Assembly (NCBI GenBank): GCA_029641185.1
Contig: JAPWGK010000011.1
Span: 558,001 to 622,000 of the forward strand
DNA from: Pseudofabraea citricarpa
Taxonomy: Eukaryota > Ascomycota > Leotiomycetes > Helotiales > Dermateaceae
Direction of reading: 5' to 3'
Length of the DNA stretch: 64,000 nt
The notes under the pieces are model-generated. The model did not search any database. It had not been told where the DNA came from and saw only the letters and a program-made list of their open reading frames with translations. The position numbers were made by a program, and so were the translations under genes. This document shows, piece after piece, positions 9,772 to 63,798 of the stretch; position 1 is the stretch's first letter, and every line of letters starts with the position of its first letter.

Positions 9772-12189
9772 ATGGGTAAGAATCCCAAGAAGGTCGCCTA
9801 CGTCGTCTTTCGTGGTAGGAAGACTGGCATCTTCAACTCTTGGGCGGCATGCCAAGAACAGGTCTCCAAGTTCCAAAATAACCTGCACCGGGGCTACGAG
9901 ACACTTGAGCAAGCTCAGCGAGAATGGGAGAACTGGCTACGAGAACCGGAATCTACTAGAACTTCAACTGCAATGAATGAAGAATATGGGCATCCCGCGT
10001 CACATGATCAGAAATACTCTATCCGGGGTCAGGCAAGCAGAGAGGCTCTGTCCATCTCATCTAGAAGCTCCTCGGATGAACCGGAAGTCATTTATGACGG
10101 GACTTTGGCTAGGATTCCGGCTTGGAAGCCTCCTGACGACGTTGTCGTCTTTGATCCCGAGAATCATCCTTTACCGCACGGCTGGGAAATGAGATACACC
10201 GAAGCAGATCATCCTTACGGCATCATACCATATTTTGTCAATCATGAAAGCAAAACTACAGCATGGGAAGACCCGCGTAGGACGTTCTTCAACAAACCGC
10301 CGTCATACCCTATTGATATTGAGCAACATGTCAATGGAATGAAACGATCCGCTACCCAATCCAATGATTCGATGGAATGGCCCATGGTGAAAAGATCAAA
10401 ATCGCAAACAGATCAGTCTCAACAATCCATCCAACAAAAGGAATCCCAAGGTCTCCTTGAATCTACATCTGAGCAAGAGCCTGTCATCCTTACTCCCGAA
10501 CAGCAAGCTGTGGTAGATATGGCAATGGAGGGCCATAACATCTTCCTTACTGGAGCTGCGGGAAGTGGGAAGACAGTTACACTCAAGGAAATCCTCCGCC
10601 GCCTGAATGAACGATACCCAGGAAGCACATCGGATGGCGCGAAGGTCCAAGTTATTGCCCCTACCGGGATTGCCGCTTTGCCTCTTGAGGGTAAGACCAC
10701 ATACTCTTTCTGTGGCTGGAATCCGGATTCTTTCAGGAGTTCAATCTTCAAGATCTTACTGAACTTCAAACAGCCTGTCAAGACAGCAATGCATGTGCTC
10801 AAGGTTCTTATCGTGGAAGAGGTTTCCATGGTCGAGAATCAATTCTTGGAAAGAATGAATCTACTTATGCAGCATATATTGTGTAACTCAAAACCCTTTG
10901 GCGGGAAGCAAGTCATCCTTCTTGGTGATTTCCATCAGCTTCCTCCAGTGAAACCTTTCGAGTTTTGCTTCGAATGCGGAGAGAAAATGGTCAGACTGGA
11001 TCCTGTCTGCACCAATAAAGATTGTATGCTTTTTGGATGGCCCTTCAGGCGTGGTGACAAATGGAGTTTCAAATCCGCTGTGTGGAAAGAACTTCGTCTA
11101 AAGCACGTAAAGCTTGACCAAATCCACCGCCAAAAAGACACCTCGTTTCAGGATATACTAAATAAAATCCGCAACGGTCACTTGCCAGATGATAAGGAGT
11201 GGCATGAGTTGGAGAGAAGAAAGGAAGTGCCAAAGGAGGCTTTCCCAGTAAGACTCATGTCGAGAATCGCCGAGGTCAAAGCTTTCAATGATGCTAAACT
11301 GGAATCAATCAAAGCTCCGGGAACAGGATGGATTGCAGATGACTCGTCTAAGAAGCTTGGCTTCGATCCGAACATATCATGGCCTACTTTTGAAATCACT
11401 ACGAAGTTGAGAGAGTACAAGGAGTCGTTGAAGGACCACCGATTTCCAACCGACCTAACTTTAAAAGTCGGTGCGAAGGTTGTCCTATTAGTGAATCTGG
11501 ACCCGACGAAAGGCTTGGTGAACGGGTCTCAGGGAACAGTGATTGGGTTTGTCGATACATCTGCGTGGACAAAGCAAGAATTGCACGGTAGTGAACAACA
11601 TCAGCGGCGGATGGAACTGCTGAAGGAATTCGAAAAGAAAAACAGCCCGATGAGACCCATCGTACGTTTCCGAAATGGAACTTCAATCGTTCAGAAAACA
11701 ATTATGCCTGAACCTCAAGAGTCGTTACGAGGCAGTTCCAATGATCGATATATTGTGTGCAGGGCACAGATACCTCTCGCTTTAGCTTGGGCTCTATCGA
11801 TCCATAAAAGTCAAGGAATGACACTTGAGCATGTCGAAGTATCATCAAGGGATATATTTGAGACAGGTCAATTATATGTGGGATTGTCTCGTGCAACAAA
11901 ACTCGAAGGGCTTACTGTCTCCGGCTACTCAAGGCAACAACTCGCTATTGATAAGGATGTCCTTGAATTTTACAAAAATGCAAAATGGGAAAGCCTCACA
12001 GGAAAGATGCCCCCAAAGGTTCCAGCAGCCACCTCAAAATTTGCCGAACCGACTCATGTCGAATCGAAAATTGATGAAGCGAGTCTTGTTGGCCAACGGC
12101 CTAGAAGAGCGAGCTCTTCATCTGCTGGCTCTATCGAATGGATCTCATCGGAGGAAGAATCACAAACTATGGAAATGCCAACTGATTGA
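9772..12189 (+). CDS. PIF1-family DNA helicase with RNase H1 N-terminal-like and WW domains
   Basis: Single exon, 805 aa. Residues 1-56 (KVAYVVFRGRKTGIFNSW, then YETLEQAQREWENW) match the caulimovirus viroplasmin / RNase H1 N-terminal domain, which binds RNA-DNA hybrids. Residues 131-169 form a WW domain (LPHGWEMRYTEAD, YFVNHESKTTAWEDPR). From 240 the PIF1 core follows: Walker A GAAGSGKT at 261-268, Walker B LIVEEVSM near 346 (the usual first Asp is Glu), GDFHQLPPV at 385-393, QIHRQ at 450, and the C-terminal SIHKSQGMTL and YVGLSRAT motifs. Cys399, 402, 413 and 418 could form an inserted zinc knuckle. PIF1 enzymes unwind DNA 5'-3', resolve G-quadruplexes and R-loops; the N-terminal domain would suit recognition of RNA-DNA hybrids. 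The C-terminus after about 740 is low complexity. Confidence 0.93.
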   Translation: MGKNPKKVAYVVFRGRKTGIFNSWAACQEQVSKFQNNLHRGYETLEQAQREWENWLREPESTRTSTAMNEEYGHPASHDQKYSIRGQASREALSISSRSSSDEPEVIYDGTLARIPAWKPPDDVVVFDPENHPLPHGWEMRYTEADHPYGIIPYFVNHESKTTAWEDPRRTFFNKPPSYPIDIEQHVNGMKRSATQSNDSMEWPMVKRSKSQTDQSQQSIQQKESQGLLESTSEQEPVILTPEQQAVVDMAMEGHNIFLTGAAGSGKTVTLKEILRRLNERYPGSTSDGAKVQVIAPTGIAALPLEGKTTYSFCGWNPDSFRSSIFKILLNFKQPVKTAMHVLKVLIVEEVSMVENQFLERMNLLMQHILCNSKPFGGKQVILLGDFHQLPPVKPFEFCFECGEKMVRLDPVCTNKDCMLFGWPFRRGDKWSFKSAVWKELRLKHVKLDQIHRQKDTSFQDILNKIRNGHLPDDKEWHELERRKEVPKEAFPVRLMSRIAEVKAFNDAKLESIKAPGTGWIADDSSKKLGFDPNISWPTFEITTKLREYKESLKDHRFPTDLTLKVGAKVVLLVNLDPTKGLVNGSQGTVIGFVDTSAWTKQELHGSEQHQRRMELLKEFEKKNSPMRPIVRFRNGTSIVQKTIMPEPQESLRGSSNDRYIVCRAQIPLALAWALSIHKSQGMTLEHVEVSSRDIFETGQLYVGLSRATKLEGLTVSGYSRQQLAIDKDVLEFYKNAKWESLTGKMPPKVPAATSKFAEPTHVESKIDEASLVGQRPRRASSSSAGSIEWISSEEESQTMEMPTD

Positions 12190-19174: not shown

Positions 19175-20774
19175 ATGGATTCTACCACTCCAACGCGTCA
19201 TGTGGCAGACGGCGCAAAGACAAAGTCGAATGCAAAGGCAACATTGAATGCAAATGAAAAAGCAAAGTTGAAGCAGGAGCGGAAGAAGAAAGCCAGGGAG
19301 GCGAAAAAGGAGAGGAGGCAGAAGAAAGCCCAAGCAAAAAAGGAGAGAAGAATGGCTTCAAAAGCGAACAGGACAACATCGGTCGACGACAAAATTCTGA
19401 GGGGCAGAGAAAAAAGACAGCTCAAGAAGGAGCGGAGAGAGAAGAAGAATGCTCGAAGACAGCTCGATATGGAGGAGAAGAAGATGCAGGAGGAGGAGCA
19501 AGCTCATCCATTGGAAAAGTCTCCCGAGCTCTCAGATGAGTTCGAGGCTGCCAAGAAGCAAGGCAAGGTCAAGCTAAACATCACCGTCATGAAGAAAGAA
19601 AAGCCAAAGGTAGAACAAGCTCATCAATCGGAAAAGTCTCCCAAGCTCTCAGATGCGTTCGAGGCTGCCAAGAAGAAAGGCCAGGAGGTCAAGGTAAACA
19701 TCACCGTCGTGAAGAAAGAAAAGCCAAGAGTAGAACAGGCTCTTCAACTTCCAGAGTTCGATGCATCAGCTGCTTCTTCAGCTGCAGCCGAGGGTTCCTT
19801 GAACAACCTCCACTCGCATACATCGATTGCTTCTTCTCCATCTCCATCAGAAGATTCAGTGAGCAGCTTAGCTTCAGAAAGCCCACTAGCCCCTTTATTT
19901 CCCGCCTTCTGGAACAACCCCTGGCCTCCAGAGGGAGAAGGTGAGCAGCAAGTTGCAGCAGACGATGACACGATCCGAGCCAATTCGCCAAGCAGCAGTC
20001 GAGGATCAACAGTAGAACTCAGACGAGGTTCTCAGACACCGGAATTCGAGCACGAGTACGAGGCTCCCGATAGTCCAATCGCTGAAGACGCACACGAGCC
20101 TCACGAGCTCGTCACGCAATCGCAATCTGGACGTCACATAGTTCTCAAGACACCCATGGGAGCTCGCATCTATACCAAGGTTGAAGACCCGAACAAGTTC
20201 GTCATCTACGCCGATCCCGCTGGTCCTCAGATCTACCAGCAAGCCGGTCTCGAGGGTGTGGCTGTTGACGAGTTTGAGAGTCTTCCTGAGGTTGAGGCTG
20301 CTCCAGGCCAACTACCACCCGAGACAATCTTCAATGCTGACAAGGTAGCTTTTGCCAAGTATCCCGCGATGATCCAGAACCTGTTGCGCAAGGGAGGCAT
20401 TCCTGGCGATTTGAGCCTCAAGGTACAGAATTCTTCCTCGTAATTAATCTATCGGGGTACTAATCGGATTACAGGACGTGGAGAAGATCATCGCGTATCG
20501 CTCGAAGCTCGAGAAAGGCCGAAGAAGAGGCTGGAAGAGATACATCGATGCTGCTACAGCGATGTATCGAGTCGGTGCCGTCAAGAAACGTTATCGCCAC
20601 ACGTACGACGACGACTTCGAGGCCTACCGCAAGAAGATCCAGAAGAAAGTACGACGCGATACCCTGGCTAAGATGAAGGATCTCATTAATGTCAGTGCGG
20701 GCGTCGACAAGCTGGATGGGATCATCCGTGAGAACCTGAAGACGGAATGGCCTATCTATTCGAAGGATCTCTGA
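19175..20774 (+). CDS. Lysine-rich hypothetical protein with repeats
   Basis: Two exons, 19175-20422 and 20475-20774; the 52-bp intron has GTACAG, a TACTAAT-like branch site and ACAG, giving 515 aa. The first 110 residues are very rich in Lys, Arg, Glu and Ala and should form a long charged helix or coiled coil with nuclear localisation signals. Then come two copies of an EKSPxLSDxFEAAKK unit (about residues 112-190), a Ser/acidic disordered part, and a more ordered C-terminal half (about 320-515) that includes basic helices such as KLEKGRRRGWKRYID. I do not recognise the family. A nuclear or nucleolar location is inferred only from composition. Confidence 0.75.
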
Positions 20775-42131: not shown

Positions 42132-43377
42132 TTATTGGCCGCCGCGTCCTCCACCGAATCCACCACCACGTCCACCGCCGAATGCTTGGTTTCCACCACC
42201 GAATTGGTTTCCGCCATTGGCTCCAGCGTTGGCTCCGGCATTGGCGTTTTGTCCAGCGTTAGCGTTCTGTCCAGCGTTGGCATTCTGTCCGGCGTTGGCG
42301 TTCGCATTTCCAGCGTTGGCGTTGGCATTATTAGCGTTTCCGGCGTTTGCATTTGCGTTGTTGCCAGCGTTTGCGTTTGCATTGTTGCCAGCGTTAGCAT
42401 TGGCATTGTTACCAGCATTAGCATTGGCATTGTTTCCACCGTTACCGGCTCCAACGGTGAACTTTTGGCAATCGTCTTGGGCTCCACGTTGAGCGACGGG
42501 CATGAGTACAGGTTGATGGTTGGAGGAAGAAGTCATGGTGCAAGCACGGTAGTTACCAGCGGGGAGACCACCAGTGACAGTTGCGGAGAGAAGACCCTTT
42601 CCATTTCCGGCATCGTTGACACCCTTGAAGAAGACGAATTGCTTTGGGTCCGGGGGAGTAGTGGGGTCGAGGCTGTTTCCGAGATCCTGAACGGTGAAAT
42701 GAGTGTGGCCAACGACCTTGCCGGAACCATCAAGATCTTGAGGAGCAGCGTAGTAGGTGACGTCGGCAGCAGTGAAAGAACCAGCAGCAAGACCTTGTGT
42801 CTGTACCTCGAGATCGAATGTGGTATCGGCCTTGAGATCCTCACCCATCTTTGGGTTGGTGATCACACCGGAAATCATGTTGTTTGTCGATGGGATCTTG
42901 CCCATGACTAGGACAGTTAGCTGCTTGAATATTCCCCTCGCTCCATTGGATACGTACCAATACCGTTACATGATCCACCCTGAACTTGGATACCGTTGGT
43001 CAATGTCTCTCCGGTACAGAAGTTGATGAAGTTGGCAGCGTCACTGAGCTTGTCAGTAAATTGAAGATCGAACCCATCCAGCATACTCACGTTGCTGATG
43101 CAGCTTCTCCATCGGTTGGTGCTCCATCACTGTTCGATCCCTTCTGAACGTTGGCTGCCAATAGGGTGAGACCGCCGTTGTTTCCTCCCGCGTTGTTATT
43201 ATTTCCGGCATTGGCGTTGTTGCCTGCATTGGCATTGTTTCCCGCGTTGGCGTTCCCGCCCTTGTTGTTGTTGTTCTGGCGTCTGGCCAAATCGATAGGC
43301 GATCTCCCTCTGATCGAAGCGCCCTCCACCACACTCGCGACGCCGAGAAGAACCGTCAAGATTGTTTTCGATAACAT
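42132..43377 (-). CDS. Secreted protein with Asn/Ala-rich low-complexity regions
   Basis: Three exons: 43377-43091, 43043-42958 and 42907-42132 (introns 47 and 50 bp), 382 aa. A signal peptide (MLSKTILTVLLGVASVVEG) and an ARR processing site start the protein. A short NANAGN repeat follows, then a conserved ectodomain with FINFCTGETLTNG, GSCNGIVMGKIP, GHTHFTVQDLG and ASSNHQP-like LPAGNYRACTMTSSSNHQP. The C-terminus is a long ANANAGNN/GQNANAG repeat ending in GGGRGG. The ectodomain matches a widespread family of secreted fungal proteins often misnamed ribosomal protein S17 in databases. The function is unknown; surface or spore localisation is inferred from the repeat and signal. A 258-codon antisense ORF (42135-42911) comes from the same repetitive codons. 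Confidence 0.85.
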
Positions 43378-45357
43378 GATGATGTGATATGTGTGTTGTT
43401 GTAAAACTCGTAACTCTGATTTCCTCCCCAAATATCAAACGTAGGTGATTGTTAGGTAATGAATTGTAAATGCGCTCAGCACGGGAAGATGACCAGCAAC
43501 GATTAGAATAGAAATGGGAAAAAGAACGGCTTCAGACAAAGCTGGAAATGTTTTTGAAGAATGAATAGAAGAGAAGAGAGAATGCGACACCAGGTGAGGA
43601 GAAGAGGAGTTTTTGGGGAAAAGAAGATTATGGATCTCCTTTAGTAACAGCCAAGAAGCTTATATGGCCCCTTCCCCTTAGCAGAGCCGAATGTGACATG
43701 TTGACTTTGACATGGCCAAAGAGTTAGGATGACAGGATGAAGAAGCTATCCGGTGTGTCAATCCTGCTAACACCGGGGCAATGCTACCTTGTTCCAACCT
43801 TGTTCAGACCAGAGGGGCATGGGGGTGGCAGATGCCAAGTTGTTGGCATTGCTTCATGTGTCGCTTCAGACGGTTTCGTCCCAAGAGCTTGATGAGCCTC
43901 CGTCCAATTCACCGTCTGAGAAATATTGGCATGCGACCGTGGGGGGGCTCATTGGCTGGAGCGGACCCCCGTCGACGGGCGGGCCAGGGTAGTTAAGCTT
44001 CTTTATAACCCTACCGGGGCCTGCGGGCTTGCTGAAGCTGCTTTGTATCATCGACTCGGCAACCGGTGCTTCCCTGTCGATATGTCGACACAGAATGCGA
44101 TGTCGTTTCCTGAATCGAGAGCGATCAAGACGACCAAGAAAATAAGGAAATGAAGGCGGGCGGTAAATCCGTCTTGGGAGGCGTCTGAGAGCTGGTCCCA
44201 ACACCGGTCAGCGATTGGGCCGACTGTCGCAGCATCAATGCCTTTTCTGTACAAGATCATCAGCACAATAAAATACCGTGGACCCGGAGGCTGAGGCTGA
44301 GGATGCGTAGAGGGTGTTGGTGTTGCTGAGCAGGCGCCATCCATCGTGTCTCCTCTCGCTCGCACAACAGAACGGATTCATATGATTCAATGCTGCACAG
44401 TGCGAGGGCGTCTATACGAGGACGTCCATCTGAAGCAGCCGCCGGGCGCGTGTGTTTCTCGTCGTGAGGTAGATGGGGGGTGAGGGCGGAGAGGATAGGA
44501 TGATGGATGGATGGGAACGAAACAGGTTCAGTGTGTTCTCGGTTCGCCGTTTGGACGGTCCAGGAACAGAGATCGTGGTGATCTTGGCAGATCTTGGCAG
44601 GGCCAGCGTGAAACGACGACCTGGACCCCGCCACCGCAATCTTGTCTCATCTTGCCCAGCGATGTTGTGTTGTGTACTGGAATAATAATCCAGCAGAGTA
44701 TGGTAATGTACGGGGTTGTACAGGTATGGGTACAGGTACAGATGCAGTACTGTACTGTCCTGTACTGTCCTGTACACCAACAGACAGACGTACAATCAGA
44801 CAGACAGCATGGCCCCCAACCTGCAGCCTTCCATTCCGTCGCTGCTCCGAGAGAGGGATCATCCATCACTGTTCCATTCTTCTAGGGCAGAAACGAGCTG
44901 TGTCGTTGATTCAGACTTTGAACTCCTGGTCACTGGTCAGGCTGACTTGCATTGCGCTGCGCATAACATCGCCTGGCCGGGGGTCGAAATTGGCTTTTCC
45001 ACTCACGTCGCCGACCAGCTGTGCACTGTGTATGTTTCGCGACCTTCGTCTCGTCCATCATCGAACGAAAGAAATGCTCTCGGTCCGTGTCAATGACGCT
45101 GGGGCATAACCGCTCCCAAGTTCCTTCCATCTTTCGGATGATGGCTCTCTGCTTGATGCAAGCTTGGACGCATGTCAAGGCACGGTTGATCGAGGGTCAT
45201 AGTTGTCCTACCATCCAGTGATCGCTCACCGGTTGACCAGTTATCCCCCCCAGCAATCAATGCGGTGCTTTCGATGCCGAGACGATCGAACTGAGAAGGA
45301 TCATTATAGTATGATGCCACCGCCGACCTGGGGAATCAATCTGCATGGAGTGTCAGG

Positions 45358-58431: not shown

Positions 58432-60089
58432 TCATTTTGACGATGAGTTTCCGATATGGAACCAAGGATGACTTAGCATTTCTTCAGCTGTTATGCGATT
58501 TCCTGCATCGTATATAAAGATCTTAGACAGAAGGTCATAGAGCAAAGCTGCCTCACTCTCTAAAATCTTTGGCATTGCCTCCAGGAGTCCATCTAGCTCG
58601 TCATCGTAACAATAAAGATAAGTATTGTCAATCTTGGTGGCTGTAGGCTTCCAAACAATATCGGAGAAGCACTGAGGGTATGGCTGATTTTCATTTTTTC
58701 TACACACTGGATGCTCCGGTCGAACTCTGCCAGTCTCGACGACGCTATTCTCGGGTTGGTCCCATATCTTGTAGACCAGATCTTTCATCGATCTTTTACC
58801 TTCTCGTTTCTCAAGTGGTTTACCATTGGTGGGGTCTTTAGTCGGCTCTCCATCATAATCAAATAATGTATCCTCCCATGAGGCAGGCGCGTCGCCGAGA
58901 GTCTGGATGATGATCCTCATCAAATCCGCCGGAGAAGTGACTTCGTATTCTGAGAAGGGGCCTTCCCCAGATCTGAGTCGGAAAATGGAACAACCAAGTG
59001 CCCAAACATCGCTTGCGGGACTAGCCTTAAAGCCCGTCGCTACCTCAGGTGCTAGAAACTCAACTGGAGTACCTAGCATATCTTCGGGGGGTGATGATGC
59101 CGGAAAGGACTGGTCAAAGTCGATTAAGCTGACATCTTTACAGATCAGGCTCTCTTCAGCAGACAGAAAATTGAGCGACTTCACGATATATCTTGGGCCT
59201 CCTGGACCCGGTTTCTCTTCAAAGAAGGCCTCAAACGGTGCCGTCTCAGGCTTACCAAATAAGCGATAGATATCACTCTCTGTATAGTGATCGATATCCA
59301 ACAAATCGAAAAGGATATTAGCTGTTGTCACGTCTAGATACGTTAGCAGACGATTAAAAAAGCCAAGGAGCTGCTCAGGAACCTGGGTGACTCACCTCCG
59401 TGGCATAGGCCATGTGCATGCAGATCAGCTAAGGCCTTCGTTGCTTGGTAGCTAGCCTTACGAGATAGGCACGGTGTAATCCTGGAAAAAATACCATCAG
59501 ATAGTTGAGATATGGATGGGCCTAAAACAGGCAGTACGATGCAGAGATGGGTACCATTTGGGCCATTGAGAGTGAAGTGCTGCTCTTCGACAATGAAGTT
59601 GATTGGAACTGTATCGCTGGCATGATGCGAGGCTGCATCGCAGTTCAACTTCCTTTTAGTACAGGCAGATGCTGAGTACTCGGCCATGACAATTTTCAGA
59701 GCCACCCACTTATGATCTTTCTGGTCCTGCGCCAGCCAGACAGTAGCGAAACCGCCGGCACCGAGTTTGTGCACAATTCGATAGCGCCCATCGTAGATAT
59801 CACCCAGATGTACAGGATGTAAACCCCCAGGCTCGTACCTCTCGAGGTTTTCAGTATCGCCGAAGTTTAATTGAGGCCAGGGTAAGGACTCGGTGTCGTC
59901 TGCGGGCGGATGAGGCGACATCGATGGATGAGGTGACATTGATGGATGAGGTGACATCGATGGATGAGAATGAACTTTGTGAGGTAGAGGTAGTATGTAG
60001 AATGGTAAAGGAGAAAGAATGTATGAGATTATTATTGATTGCGAAACTTCTTTGTTCTCTAATAGGACAAAGGTTTCCGGATATTGCAT
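58432..60089 (-). CDS. SRPK-like protein kinase
   Basis: Two exons, 60089-59396 and 59333-58432; a 62-bp intron splits the catalytic loop at HG|DVTTAN, 531 aa from the first ATG (487 from Met45, which may be the real start since residues 1-44 are a hydrophobic stretch unlike the family). Three SMSPHP repeats (residues about 44-61) are encoded by 18-bp repeats. The kinase core starts with YRIVHKLGAGGFATVWLA and has the SRPK lead-in YEPGGLHPVHLGD. The catalytic loop is HGDVTTANILF (Lys of DxKxxN replaced by Thr) and DFG is DFD (LIDFDQSF); ITAEEMLSHPWF ends it. SRPK relatives phosphorylate SR-type splicing factors; this divergent member may have other targets. Confidence 0.85.
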
Positions 60090-60255
60090 TACAATGAGTC
60101 TTTCAATGAATTATAGGCAATAAACAACATCATGTTTTAGCATAAAAGTTAGCATTTTAATTTCAAAATTCTTCAACTTATCTACAAACATTTGTTATAT
60201 GACTATCCCTGAATCGAGTTAAGAGCTTCCTCTAACACAACCTCCCTCAATCAGA
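60090..60255. other. Kinase promoter and array edge
   Basis: AT-rich 166 bp between the kinase start and the first array motif; presumably promoter. Confidence 0.3.
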
Positions 60256-63032
60256 TTCGTTGCGTGACGGACTTGAAACCAATGATTCACTAGTAACTCT
60301 ACCAATAGCATTCTCTATGAATTTCGTTACACAACGGACCTGAAAGTCAAGTTTCACAAGAGCTCTTAGATATAATAAAGATCTATGTAATTATAATTCG
60401 TTGCATAAAGGACTTCGTCGCTAAAATTCACTTGAGATCTACTGAAGTTGAAATTTCTTTCTTTACTATACACCTAGAATATTTTTCGTGTCCATTCCAT
60501 AACAGACCTAAAGACAAAGACTCACTTAACTTTGTCTAAGCAGATTCGTTGCATGACGAGCTTCGAACCACATGATTCACTGTTTATATAGTTTTATCCA
60601 GCTATCTAGTGTATAAAATCTTATTTCGTTGCATGACGGACTCCAAATAATAACTCACTCAGAGGTTATGCAAAGCAATAATCATATTTATCCAGTTTCG
60701 TTGCATGACGGACTTTTCACAAGGCGGGCTTTTTCCGGCAGTATCCTAAAGTATAATTCACTTTACAAATCCTGCTAAAGTTAAAGACAGCACTGGTTTA
60801 AGTGAATCTTGAGTACATGGTCCGTCACGCAACGAAGTTGGGAGTTATTGCAGAGCAGGAAGGCAAAGGTGGTCAAAGCTTCTTGGAAGATCCGTCATGC
60901 AACGAAATAGAGAGATATTCTACCTTTATAGAAGCAGGAGTAAGTGGTCAATGCTCGGAAGATCCGTCGTGCAACGAATTTAAAAGTTATTCCGGGTTCT
61001 AGCAAAGGCGGACGGACATACCTGGTCAAAGCTTCACAGAAAGTCCGTCATGCAACGAAATACAAAGACAATCCAGCTTCTCTGGAAGCTAGAGTAAGTG
61101 GTCAAAGCTTCGCAGAAAGTCCGTCATGCAACGAAATAGAGAGATAATCCAGCTTCTGAGAATGCTGGAGTAAGTAAGTGGTCAAAGCTTCTTGGGAGGT
61201 CCGTCGTGCAACGAAAAGACTCCCCAGGTGAGAGTTGGATATATCTCTGTTTCGTTGCATGACGGATTTTTGGAAAAGCTTTGACCAGGTAGCCGTGTAA
61301 TATGTAGCGAACTACCTCTTACCTATTCCAAGTTCGTTGCATGACGGACCAAGAAACCAAAAATCTTTCAGTTACCAAGATGCTAATATTTACCTAGGTA
61401 GTGTACTAGCTTTTTTTTCGTTGCATGACGGACCTCCCAAGAAGCTCTGACCAGGTAGCTATGTAACATATAGCTAACTACCTACTTACCTAGTTCAAGT
61501 TCGTTGTATGACGGACCTAGAAACCAAAGAATTTTCAGTCACCAAGATGTTAATACTTACCTAGGTACTTCACTGGCTTCCTTTTCTTGCATGATAGACC
61601 TGGAAACTGAAGACCCAGCAGATGGATTTAATATTTGGCTAACTGTTTCGATTTCGTTGCGTGACGGACCTGGAAACCAAAGATTTTCCAGTTACCAAGA
61701 TGCTAATATATAGCCAACTACTTACCTAGACTGACTTCGTTGCATGACGGATATGGGAACTGATGATTCACTAGACAGCTGTGGTTGATAACTAGCTATT
61801 TGGCTCAACTTCGTTGCATGACAGACACTGAAACCAAATATTCAATGCATACATATAAAGAGTAACTGTTTCGTTACATGACGGACTGGAAACTGAAGAT
61901 TCACCAGACAGCTGTTAATATCTAGCTACTGTGCAATAGTTGCATGACGGGTTAGGAACTAGAATTTACTAGGTTGCTAATTTATCTATTAATATCTAGC
62001 TAACTGTTTCGATTCTGTTGTATAACGGACTAGAAACTAAAGATTTACTAGGTAGCTGTTAATATATAGCAAGCTTACTTTCGTTGCATAACGGACCTGG
62101 AAACCAGGATTCACTGTGTAATCCAATCCAGCTGTTGATATCTAGCTAACTGGTTTACTTTCGTTGCACGACGGACCTTTGGAGAAGCTTTGACCAGAAG
62201 ACTGTTTAATATCAACTTCGTTGCATGACGGACCAGAAATCAATTATTCACTGTCGATGAAAAGGATATGGTATGACTTCGTTGCGTGACTGACTTCAGC
62301 ACCCATCATTCACCAGGTTATTATTGCAAGCATACTACTGGCATTACTAAATTCGTTGCATGACGAATGTTAAGGCTCAGCATTCACTACTGACTGTAAT
62401 GCCTATAGATATAGATATATGAGGTGGTGATTTGAGATTTGAGATTTTCGTTGCATGACGGGCTTCAACATTCACCACTCACTCAGATTTTGGGTGCAGG
62501 TTTATATATGGAAGGAGTTTCGTTGCATGACGAATTTTATTTCTTAGTATTCACTGCTACTCACAGATATATGACATGGTGATTTGAGAGTTTCGTTGCG
62601 TGACGGACTTCAGGACATTCACCACTCACTCAGATTTTAGCTACAGGTTGGTATTTTACAGAGCATTTCGTTGCGTGACAGAATAAAGTGTCTATGATTC
62701 CAAGCATCAGTAGTCTTATGAAATTCGTTGCATGACGGACACCACCATTCACTCCCAAGAGTTGGTAGTATAATAAGATTCGTTGCATGACGGATTAAAA
62801 TCACCATTCACTGCTGACTGTATGCAGTCCCATCCAGGCCTAAAGTACACCAAACCTGCTGACTTGGAACTTCCGTTGCATGACGGATCTCTGACTGTCA
62901 TTCACTTGTCTCCTAGATTTTGTGCAGAGGTTGATATTTACAAAGAGTTTCGTTGCAAGACGGACTTCAGAACATTCACCTCTCACTCCTTCATAACAGT
63001 AGTAGTAATATAAATTTCGTTGCATGACGGAT
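60256..63032. repeat. Satellite-like array of a 17-bp motif, CENP-B-box-like
   Basis: About 36 clear copies of TTCGTTGCATGACGGAC or its one- to three-base variants, 53-95 bp apart (usually 67-84), plus a few decayed copies (60492, 61584, 63106). Forward copies start at 60256, 60323, 60397, 60545, 60625, 60697; reverse copies at 60820, 60890, 60962, 61043, 61119, 61199; then forward again from 61251 to 63016. Spacers are diverged but share pieces (GATTCACT, CTGACCAGGTAG, ACCAAGATGCTAATA), so this is a minisatellite of about 75-bp monomers in which the 17-bp core is much better conserved than the rest. The core shares TTCGTTG with the mammalian CENP-B box. No ORF is coded here. It lies between the kinase promoter and the 3' end of the deoxyribosyltransferase gene. 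Confidence 0.9.
61180..61285. repeat. Large inverted repeat inside the array
   Basis: Two adjacent, oppositely oriented array units give arms at 61180-61216 and 61250-61285 that pair almost fully (GGTCAAAGCTT with AAGCTTTGACC, and the two 17-bp cores), with a loop of about 33 bases. It could form a hairpin or cruciform. Confidence 0.75.
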
Positions 63033-63252: not shown

Positions 63253-63798
63253 TTAAGCAGTCTTCTGTGCCTCAAAGAGCTCAACAGCTACTCTGATGGC
63301 CTCTTCGGCGGTCTTACAGAGTCGCTCAACCCCGCAAGCAATCATGAGATTGTCAACCGAACCGGCCGTGCCATCGATAGCCTTGAACTCCTCAACAGAC
63401 ATTCCTTGCTCGTCTCTGAGATAACCATCCTGAGCTCTCTCGACCTTGTGAAAGTCCTTGACCTTACTGACATAAGAGCGATCGTTACTGGTATAGCCGA
63501 CGACAATCTTCTTGAGAGCCGCGGCAGCACCCATCTCGTAGGCGGTGCCCACATCCATGGACGGACCACGAAAGGGCGTCATGTTGGCAATGATGGCATC
63601 CGAAGCGATGATCAGATCCATGTTTGCCGATCGGATATATGCAGCCTGGGCATGACTGCCCTTCTCTGCATCCGACAGCTCATTGTCCATGGGGTAGAGA
63701 CCTTCCACGCCATGCTTGTCACACAGGGCCTTCAACTCTCTCCCTTTGGCGATGGGGTCCCGCTCAAAGACGTCTGGTCCTGCAAGGTAGATCTTCAT
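63253..63798 (-). CDS. Nucleoside 2-deoxyribosyltransferase family protein
   Basis: Single exon, 181 aa. The family marks are the N-terminal KIYLAGPDVF, the MDLIIASDAIIANM strand and FRGPSMDVGTAYEMG, with Glu88 as the probable catalytic nucleophile. These enzymes transfer a deoxyribose between nucleobases or hydrolyse deoxynucleoside monophosphates. The size (about 180 aa) is normal. The family is mainly bacterial; fungal copies are known in scattered lineages and are often explained by horizontal transfer, which the intron-free gene would fit but does not prove. Its 3' end faces the 17-bp repeat array. Confidence 0.9.
   Translation of the reverse strand: MKIYLAGPDVFERDPIAKGRELKALCDKHGVEGLYPMDNELSDAEKGSHAQAAYIRSANMDLIIASDAIIANMTPFRGPSMDVGTAYEMGAAAALKKIVVGYTSNDRSYVSKVKDFHKVERAQDGYLRDEQGMSVEEFKAIDGTAGSVDNLMIACGVERLCKTAEEAIRVAVELFEAQKTA

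Follow-up and report, generated by a model that had tools for sequence, protein, structure and literature searches.

The array of short elements at positions 60256-63032 of the window belongs, in our best reading, to a class of intergenic arrays of putative binding sites that occurs throughout the genome. Throughout, the window denotes the whole stretch of DNA that was analysed (64,000 nucleotides), i.e., bases 558001-622000 of contig C3 from a genome of 44 Mb in 43 contigs. The feature is real and genome-wide and, on balance of the evidence from sequence comparison, the arrays appear to be under selection. That the arrays are both protein-bound and selected is in our judgement probable; this judgement includes neither the candidate protein nor the job discussed below.

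Using a weight matrix built on the motif, we find 36 non-overlapping units within 60256-63032, which is the number that a sequence-only reading of the window had given. That reading had also reported both orientations, and the units indeed run along the array as 6 plus, 6 minus, and 24 plus. If up to 3 mismatches to TTCGTTGCATGACGGAC are allowed, the window contains 35 matches (0.12 expected from shuffles), of which 34 are within 60256-63032. The remaining one, a stray match with 3 mismatches on the minus strand at 45053-45069, is far from the array and probably due to chance. With up to 4 mismatches, the array holds 37 matches, and their spacing from core start to core start is irregular (52-148 bp). 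Respective features are as follows.

60256..63032, mixed strands: window array of 36 units, each a 17-bp core plus a diverged spacer (weight matrix)
60256..60713, plus strand: first block, 6 cores (mismatch scan and weight matrix)
60820..61215, minus strand: middle block, 6 cores (mismatch scan and weight matrix)
61251..63032, plus strand: third block, 22 cores (up to 3 mismatches), 24 cores (weight matrix) or 25 cores (up to 4 mismatches)
61583, 61936, and 62014, plus strand: degenerate cores of the third block (scan with up to 4 mismatches)
61736..61772, plus strand: example of a bipartite unit, with the core at 61736-61752 and ATTCACT at 61766-61772
58435..60110, minus strand: left neighbour, protein kinase domain in two open stretches, 5' end toward the array
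63253..63798, minus strand: right neighbour, open frame of 181 aa with coding score 55, 3' end toward the array

CRISPR had been excluded from the outset, and correctly so, since the host is eukaryotic and the spacers are diverged duplicates of one another.

A genome-wide search for the motif, which had been suggested along with the sequence-only reading, reveals at least 30 arrays with 3-53 units each. If up to 3 mismatches are allowed, the full motif has 658 genome copies compared to 63 for the pattern read backwards; for its 15-base core CGTTGCRTGACGRAY, 234 copies face a single one for the reversed control. The motif is not confined to the window; an occurrence there alone had been named as part of the case that would speak against a bound array. 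Among the exact and near-exact copies listed, most are clustered.

The regions scanned initially were 31, i.e., the window and 30 other places; two regions of contig C7 were added afterwards. An array of at least 3 units (weight matrix) is present in 28 of the 31 and yields 494 rows. Non-overlapping are 488 of them, and the figures given below for 494 rows retain the 6 overlapping reverse readings of near-palindromic cores. The C7 regions contribute two further arrays, which are kept outside the 494 rows, and the motif places C1:3404517 and C17:342930 lie outside the regions examined. Isolated cores are found in L005 (one), L004 (two), and L010 (two), and the sites of these three loci are excluded from the 28 arrays. 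Arrays are 0.2-4.2 kb long and their elements are mostly spaced by 50-110 bp, with a mean unit of 72 bp (419 spacings up to 110 bp). The spacing reveals no helical phasing (p 0.25 at 10.5 bp; lowest p 0.065 at 9.5 bp among 7 periods tried). All cores of an array share one orientation in 23/28 arrays, while 5/28 are mixed, the window array among them. In L022, a separate short tandem repeat (CTGACTGAGCC, CTGATTGAGCC) follows past position 2223 and starts about 20 bp or less from the last core.

The element spans about 20 bp with the consensus RTTTCGTTGCRTGACGGACYT (494 rows) and a total information of about 29 bits. Per-base conservation of core and spacer, another suggested check, was assessed on the same rows. 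One base is found in at least 88% of them at all core positions except for the soft positions 9 (A or G), 11, 15, and 17, and in at least 97% at positions 4-7, 12, and 13, while the flanks carry little information beyond 2-3 bases on either side of the core. The original observation of spacers that have diverged much further than the core thus extends from the window to all 28 arrays.

The core consensus shows a pseudo two-fold axis. Here, the pairs 1-16, 3-14, 4-13, and 5-12 are complementary, i.e., 4 of 8 pairs, and a purine is opposite a pyrimidine in 8/8, a symmetry that would suit a dimer. When a row departs from the consensus, it often does so by the symmetry-restoring base (141/142 non-consensus bases at position 9, 42/44 at position 10, 87/99 at position 15, and 71/102 at position 11). 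Selection for core symmetry is nevertheless suggestive only, since these departures are transitions, which are also favoured by deamination. In young duplicates, the cores show 47 transitions vs. 7 transversions and the spacers 170 vs. 88.

The predominance of single-orientation arrays (23/28), together with a core that can be drawn as a 6-pair hairpin, would be in line with an element that acts as RNA, i.e., with transcribed arrays whose core is a protein-binding or small-RNA element. However, 0/6 pairs of the hairpin covary and the paired-row counts are near the expectation under independence for 6/6 pairs, such that a structured RNA stem is rejected. Furthermore, 5 arrays including that of the window are of mixed orientation, and no Rfam family reaches its gathering score in the window. 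Altogether, we hold the RNA reading to be very improbable.

Next to the anatomy of the core, its divergence relative to the spacers is informative about selection. Core identity is 84.8% within and 84.3% between arrays. For spacers of different arrays, the average identity of 47.1% (764 random pairs) compares to 45.6% when shuffled, and within an array, it is 51.7% for random pairs (n=36) and 57.3% for adjacent units (n=400). Shared ancestry without selection fails to explain the cores, since these are alike where the spacers of different arrays are near-random. A homogenisation of each array on its own predicts cores that are more alike within than between arrays and is therefore contradicted by the nearly equal values.

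We also compared substitution rates for adjacent units. In 49 pairs of adjacent units, the spacers are at least 70% alike; their cores show changes at 54/833 sites (0.065) compared to a spacer rate of 0.109. When restricted to positions 3-8 and 12-14, a split that was chosen after conservation was known, the rate is 0.034 (15/441; p 6e-9 vs. spacer), while the remaining eight core positions show 0.099. For the 25 pairs with spacers at least 80% alike, core and spacer change equally (0.047 and 0.048), and for the 21 pairs with at least 90%, the core value (0.039) is slightly above that of the spacer (0.032). Such equal or faster core change in the youngest pairs is expected if there was too little time for selection, and it is equally expected without selection. 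Units were located via their cores, which biases core conservation upward. This bias is limited, given array mean scores of 23.1-29.5 bits vs. a cut-off of 8 and given the rarity of missing units (18/460 intervals are same-orientation gaps above 130 bp).

Neutral decay of a minisatellite or satellite is thus rejected based on both identities and substitution rates, i.e., core and spacer do not diverge alike, with the youngest pairs alone not separating the two. A sequence-specific trans-acting factor, as put forward in the sequence-only reading, stands as the best reading. We infer it because the core is the same in arrays with unrelated spacers and changes more slowly than these.

Concerning array growth, neighbouring spacers are identical or nearly so in places (L014, L019, L020, L028), which argues for an enlargement of arrays by tandem duplication. 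Spacers also resemble each other between arrays, namely among L001, L011, and L029 as well as among L019, L020, and L025, where the latter group is also linked, more weakly, to L017, L021, and the window. An identity of 66% is reached by 124 between-array unit pairs compared to 0/4,394 shuffled pairs, with the common accessory box (see below) adding to the similarity and being destroyed by the shuffling. Units may therefore have moved between loci, or arrays may have split.

Moved units would also be compatible with arrays that are copies of MATE-like low-copy mobile elements, whose repeated palindromes serve as plasmid replicator or transformation enhancer as in AMA1. Like our arrays, MATE elements are low-copy dispersed repeats of a fungus; their units measure about 60 bp and include a conserved palindrome of 16 bp. 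Judged by this description, unit length and palindrome-like core may be similar to those reported here (mean 72 bp; pseudo-palindromic core with 4/8 complementary pairs). According to PMC8954384, AMA1 of Aspergillus nidulans corresponds to the centre of two MATE elements in inverted arrangement, which show some mobile-element features, and confers autonomous replication; the accessible part of PMC9910759 has nothing on MATE. In contrast to copies of a mobile element, most arrays have unrelated spacers, vary in their number of units, and in 5/28 cases even in orientation within the array. Shared boundaries or terminal repeats were not found, i.e., BLAST detects no flank-to-flank similarity among the 28 arrays (using flanks below 1.5 kb for L022-L030), and only weak words are shared near array ends, e.g., CTACCTACC in 4 arrays. 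We consider a MATE-like nature of the arrays unlikely.

The flanks also bear on the idea that the arrays are what is left of the subterminal transposase-binding repeats of a DNA transposon, which would have been kept because the transposase of the live element used them. Short repeated transposase sites near the ends are known from plant CACTA elements, and the cores outside of arrays, single in L005 and paired in L004 and L010, can be counted in favour. Against it, beside the lack of shared flanks among the 28 arrays, no transposase domain is seen in our Pfam scan of 40 flanking frames, which covered the window plus 19 loci (neither L021-L030 nor the C7 loci) and left 11/40 frames with no matching family. 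A DNA transposon with ends is rejected, given that neither transposase gene nor terminal repeats were found in the flanks covered, and the transposon ends considered in the sequence-only reading are disfavoured on the same grounds. Remnants of the described kind seem very unlikely to us.

Beside the core, many units contain a second conserved word. The 7-base words ATTCACT/AGTGAAT occur 180 times in the spacers compared to 2.9 expected from the flanks of the same loci. Based on a matrix with a threshold of 7 bits, an ATTCACY box is located at most 32 bases 3' of the core in 306/494 rows, compared to 14 in shuffled 3' sequences and to 52/494 rows with a box 5' of the core, some of which will belong to the neighbouring unit. 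For the window array, 19/37 rows show an ATTCACY-like box within this 3' range, all of them forward. The box is not universal among arrays and its orientation is largely array-specific, as listed below for a threshold of 6 bits.

Forward only: window, L006, L017, L019, L020, L023, L025, L028
Reverse only: L001, L007, L008, L009, L011, L012, L014, L015, L026, L029
Both orientations: L016, L021, L022, L024, L030
Absent: L002, L003, L013, L018, L027

Alternative second words are AGATAA (14/20 rows of L028), AAGCTT (11/20 rows of L022), and AAGGCT (5/6 rows of L002 and 4/11 rows of L062). Given the frequent 3' box and the other words in some arrays, the unit often appears to be bipartite, i.e., to combine the core with an exchangeable second site. 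In the L028 array (1606-2634), the second box of most units reads AGATAAG, which is a GATA-factor-like site.

We also inspected the genomic surroundings. In none of the 33 regions is a coding block called inside an array. According to the Pfam scan, which covered 2 frames of L083 in addition to the 40 flanking frames, the flanks encode transporters, kinases, an oxidoreductase, a velvet factor, two SNF5 proteins, and other ordinary genes. The arrays of both L003 and L020 have an SNF5/SMARCB1 gene nearby, which is probably a chance observation. With regard to gene orientation, the 28 array gaps divide into 11 convergent, 4 divergent, and 13 tandem cases compared to 9, 13, and 18 among 40 control gaps. 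An enrichment between convergent genes is striking by eye, but it is not upheld by the tests (main settings: Fisher p 0.11, binomial p vs. control fraction 0.034; six settings: Fisher p 0.07-0.45, binomial p 0.014-0.31) and is thus a trend only.

The arrays might also be clusters of transcription-factor sites, each acting on a neighbouring gene as enhancer or silencer while a second factor binds the accessory box. Bipartite units, the GATA-like second box of L028, and the location between coding blocks are what such clusters could look like. On the other hand, the neighbouring genes scanned are without obvious common function and promoters are not favoured, as reflected by the low number of divergent array gaps (4/28 vs. 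13/40). A control of single neighbouring genes is thus a quite unlikely explanation.

A centromere is not supported. Contig C1 alone carries six arrays of at least 3 units near ordinary genes, and several arrays per contig in such surroundings argue against it.

As to the resemblance itself, the ungapped alignment of core and CENP-B box shows 12/17 identical bases. An equal match is obtained for 24/20,000 shuffled cores (200/20,000 for the gapped score), where respective p values overstate the likeness because the box was picked after the fact. Of the nine essential bases of the CENP-B box (NTTCGNNNNANNCGGGN), 7/9 agree in the best ungapped register, i.e., the full set is not found. In this register, the first C and G of CGGG differ, and one essential position, the A, is G in 28% of the core rows. 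The likeness claimed in the sequence-only reading is suggestive only. Both the box and the core are 17-bp words within repeated DNA, with protein binding being putative for the core. The mammalian centromeric satellites with CENP-B boxes differ from the arrays reported here, which are dispersed and irregularly spaced rather than forming one block.

The core was also compared to five other motifs (gapped score, 3,000 shuffles each). The score of CRE is reached by 248 shuffled cores, and those of the motifs other than RFX and CRE by at least 1,090. The RFX X-box consists of the half-sites GTTGCC and GGCAAC over 14 bp; it was rejected, since the core consensus is without the second half-site and the gapped score is reached by 186/3,000 shuffled cores.

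With respect to a potential binder, the sequence-only reading had expected pogo-type transposases in number. This is not confirmed by the 4 matches of PF03221 (CENP-B/Tc5 DNA-binding domain) in the genome. The strongest is at C11:359133 in the gene of L083; the others are at C12:2470739, C14:86699, and C14:181498. A genome search with PF03184 (transposase core) provided 0 matches and carries no weight, as its controls were silent, too. The CENP-B-type gene of L083 has one locus in the genome. Its product shares 94% identity with the 'centromere binding protein B' of Phlyctema vagabunda; among its named homologues are proteins called 'centromere binding protein B' or 'HTH CENPB-type'. The full-length Phlyctema homologue P0121 (568 aa) has human CENP-B 1hlv as its best match among solved structures (E 3.2e-9, residues 129-253), while the second exon of the L083 gene alone matches 1hlv with E 0.045 only. 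Across 41 long fungal homologues, the first helix-turn-helix stretch hardly varies. Judged by homology, the genome encodes a conserved single-locus CENP-B-type protein. This host protein is, given its single locus, the 1hlv match of its homologue, and the near-invariant helix-turn-helix, a fair candidate for the binder and no more. That it actually reads the element is possible, with the odds somewhat against it.

The proposed mechanism is the following. A sequence-specific DNA-binding protein of the host would read the element, possibly together with a partner that binds the accessory box. Local tandem duplication would enlarge the arrays and their spacers would drift, while purifying selection for binding would maintain the cores. 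We are less sure about the steps beyond, i.e., that side-by-side copies might allow for cooperative loading of the protein and that about 30 chromosomal places might be marked for a job requiring a strong local platform. Such a job may be replication, as for AMA1 (PMC8954384), chromatin organisation, or the pairing of chromosomes; the regulation of single genes is the less likely option.

A joint reading would combine these elements into an undescribed class of chromosomal loci in filamentous ascomycetes. It would comprise about 30 dispersed intergenic CENP-B-box-like arrays. The protein loaded onto them would be of CENP-B type, domesticated in ancient times and conserved across Pezizomycotina, and would organise chromosomes at these places in replication, pairing, or silencing. 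As a whole, we regard this combination as rather doubtful. If true, it would constitute a CENP-B-box-like array system outside centromeres. The fungal CENP-B-type proteins among the homologues carry names given by homology, and we know of no DNA targets of such proteins in filamentous fungi. Since the element is sharply defined and present in hundreds of copies, it is readily testable with one recombinant protein. If another protein binds, the arrays would still chart about 30 special places on the chromosomes of a fungus. In either case, they provide a natural experiment on birth, growth, and selective upkeep of binding-site arrays.

Other systems share parts of this organisation. In nematode meiotic pairing centres, many short motif copies are clustered within chromosome regions and are read by a DNA-binding protein, which is putative for the arrays studied here. 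The latter differ by several arrays per contig of 0.2-4.2 kb each and by a longer motif. Plasmid iterons and bacterial partition sites likewise consist of arrayed sites, each about 20 bp long, to which one protein binds, with the protein again putative in our case. In contrast to them, we observe irregular spacing at 30 or more loci on eukaryotic chromosomes.

In the literature searched, which leaves most subscription papers and supplements outside, we found no description of such arrays and no occurrence of six 13-base core strings. Contigs of viral (3 matching stretches) and prokaryotic origin (27) showed single matches each and no array, where about 60 chance matches are estimated per 257 billion random bases. 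To detect mis-annotated arrays in other fungi, we also used a reading frame that is open by chance in one array as a protein query, for which 0/122 candidates scored.

Finally, the window contains additional repeats. An 18-bp tandem repeat GGATGAGGTGACATCGAT with 3.4 copies (59908-59968) is located within the kinase-domain open frame that adjoins the array. Tandem repeats of 18-36 bp, e.g., GTTGCCAGCGTTAGCATTGGCATT, are found at 42225-42444 and 43208-43254, the former lying in open frames on both strands that are about 257 aa long. A 117-bp tandem repeat with 2.1 copies (19499-19747) lies within a 422-aa open frame. The host most likely belongs to the Helotiales, given that the open frame at 9772-12189 is 72% identical to a PIF1 helicase of Phlyctema vagabunda, followed by the best-scoring named matches in Coleophoma, Hyphodiscus, Chlorociboria, Monilinia, and Sclerotinia, which are members of this order.
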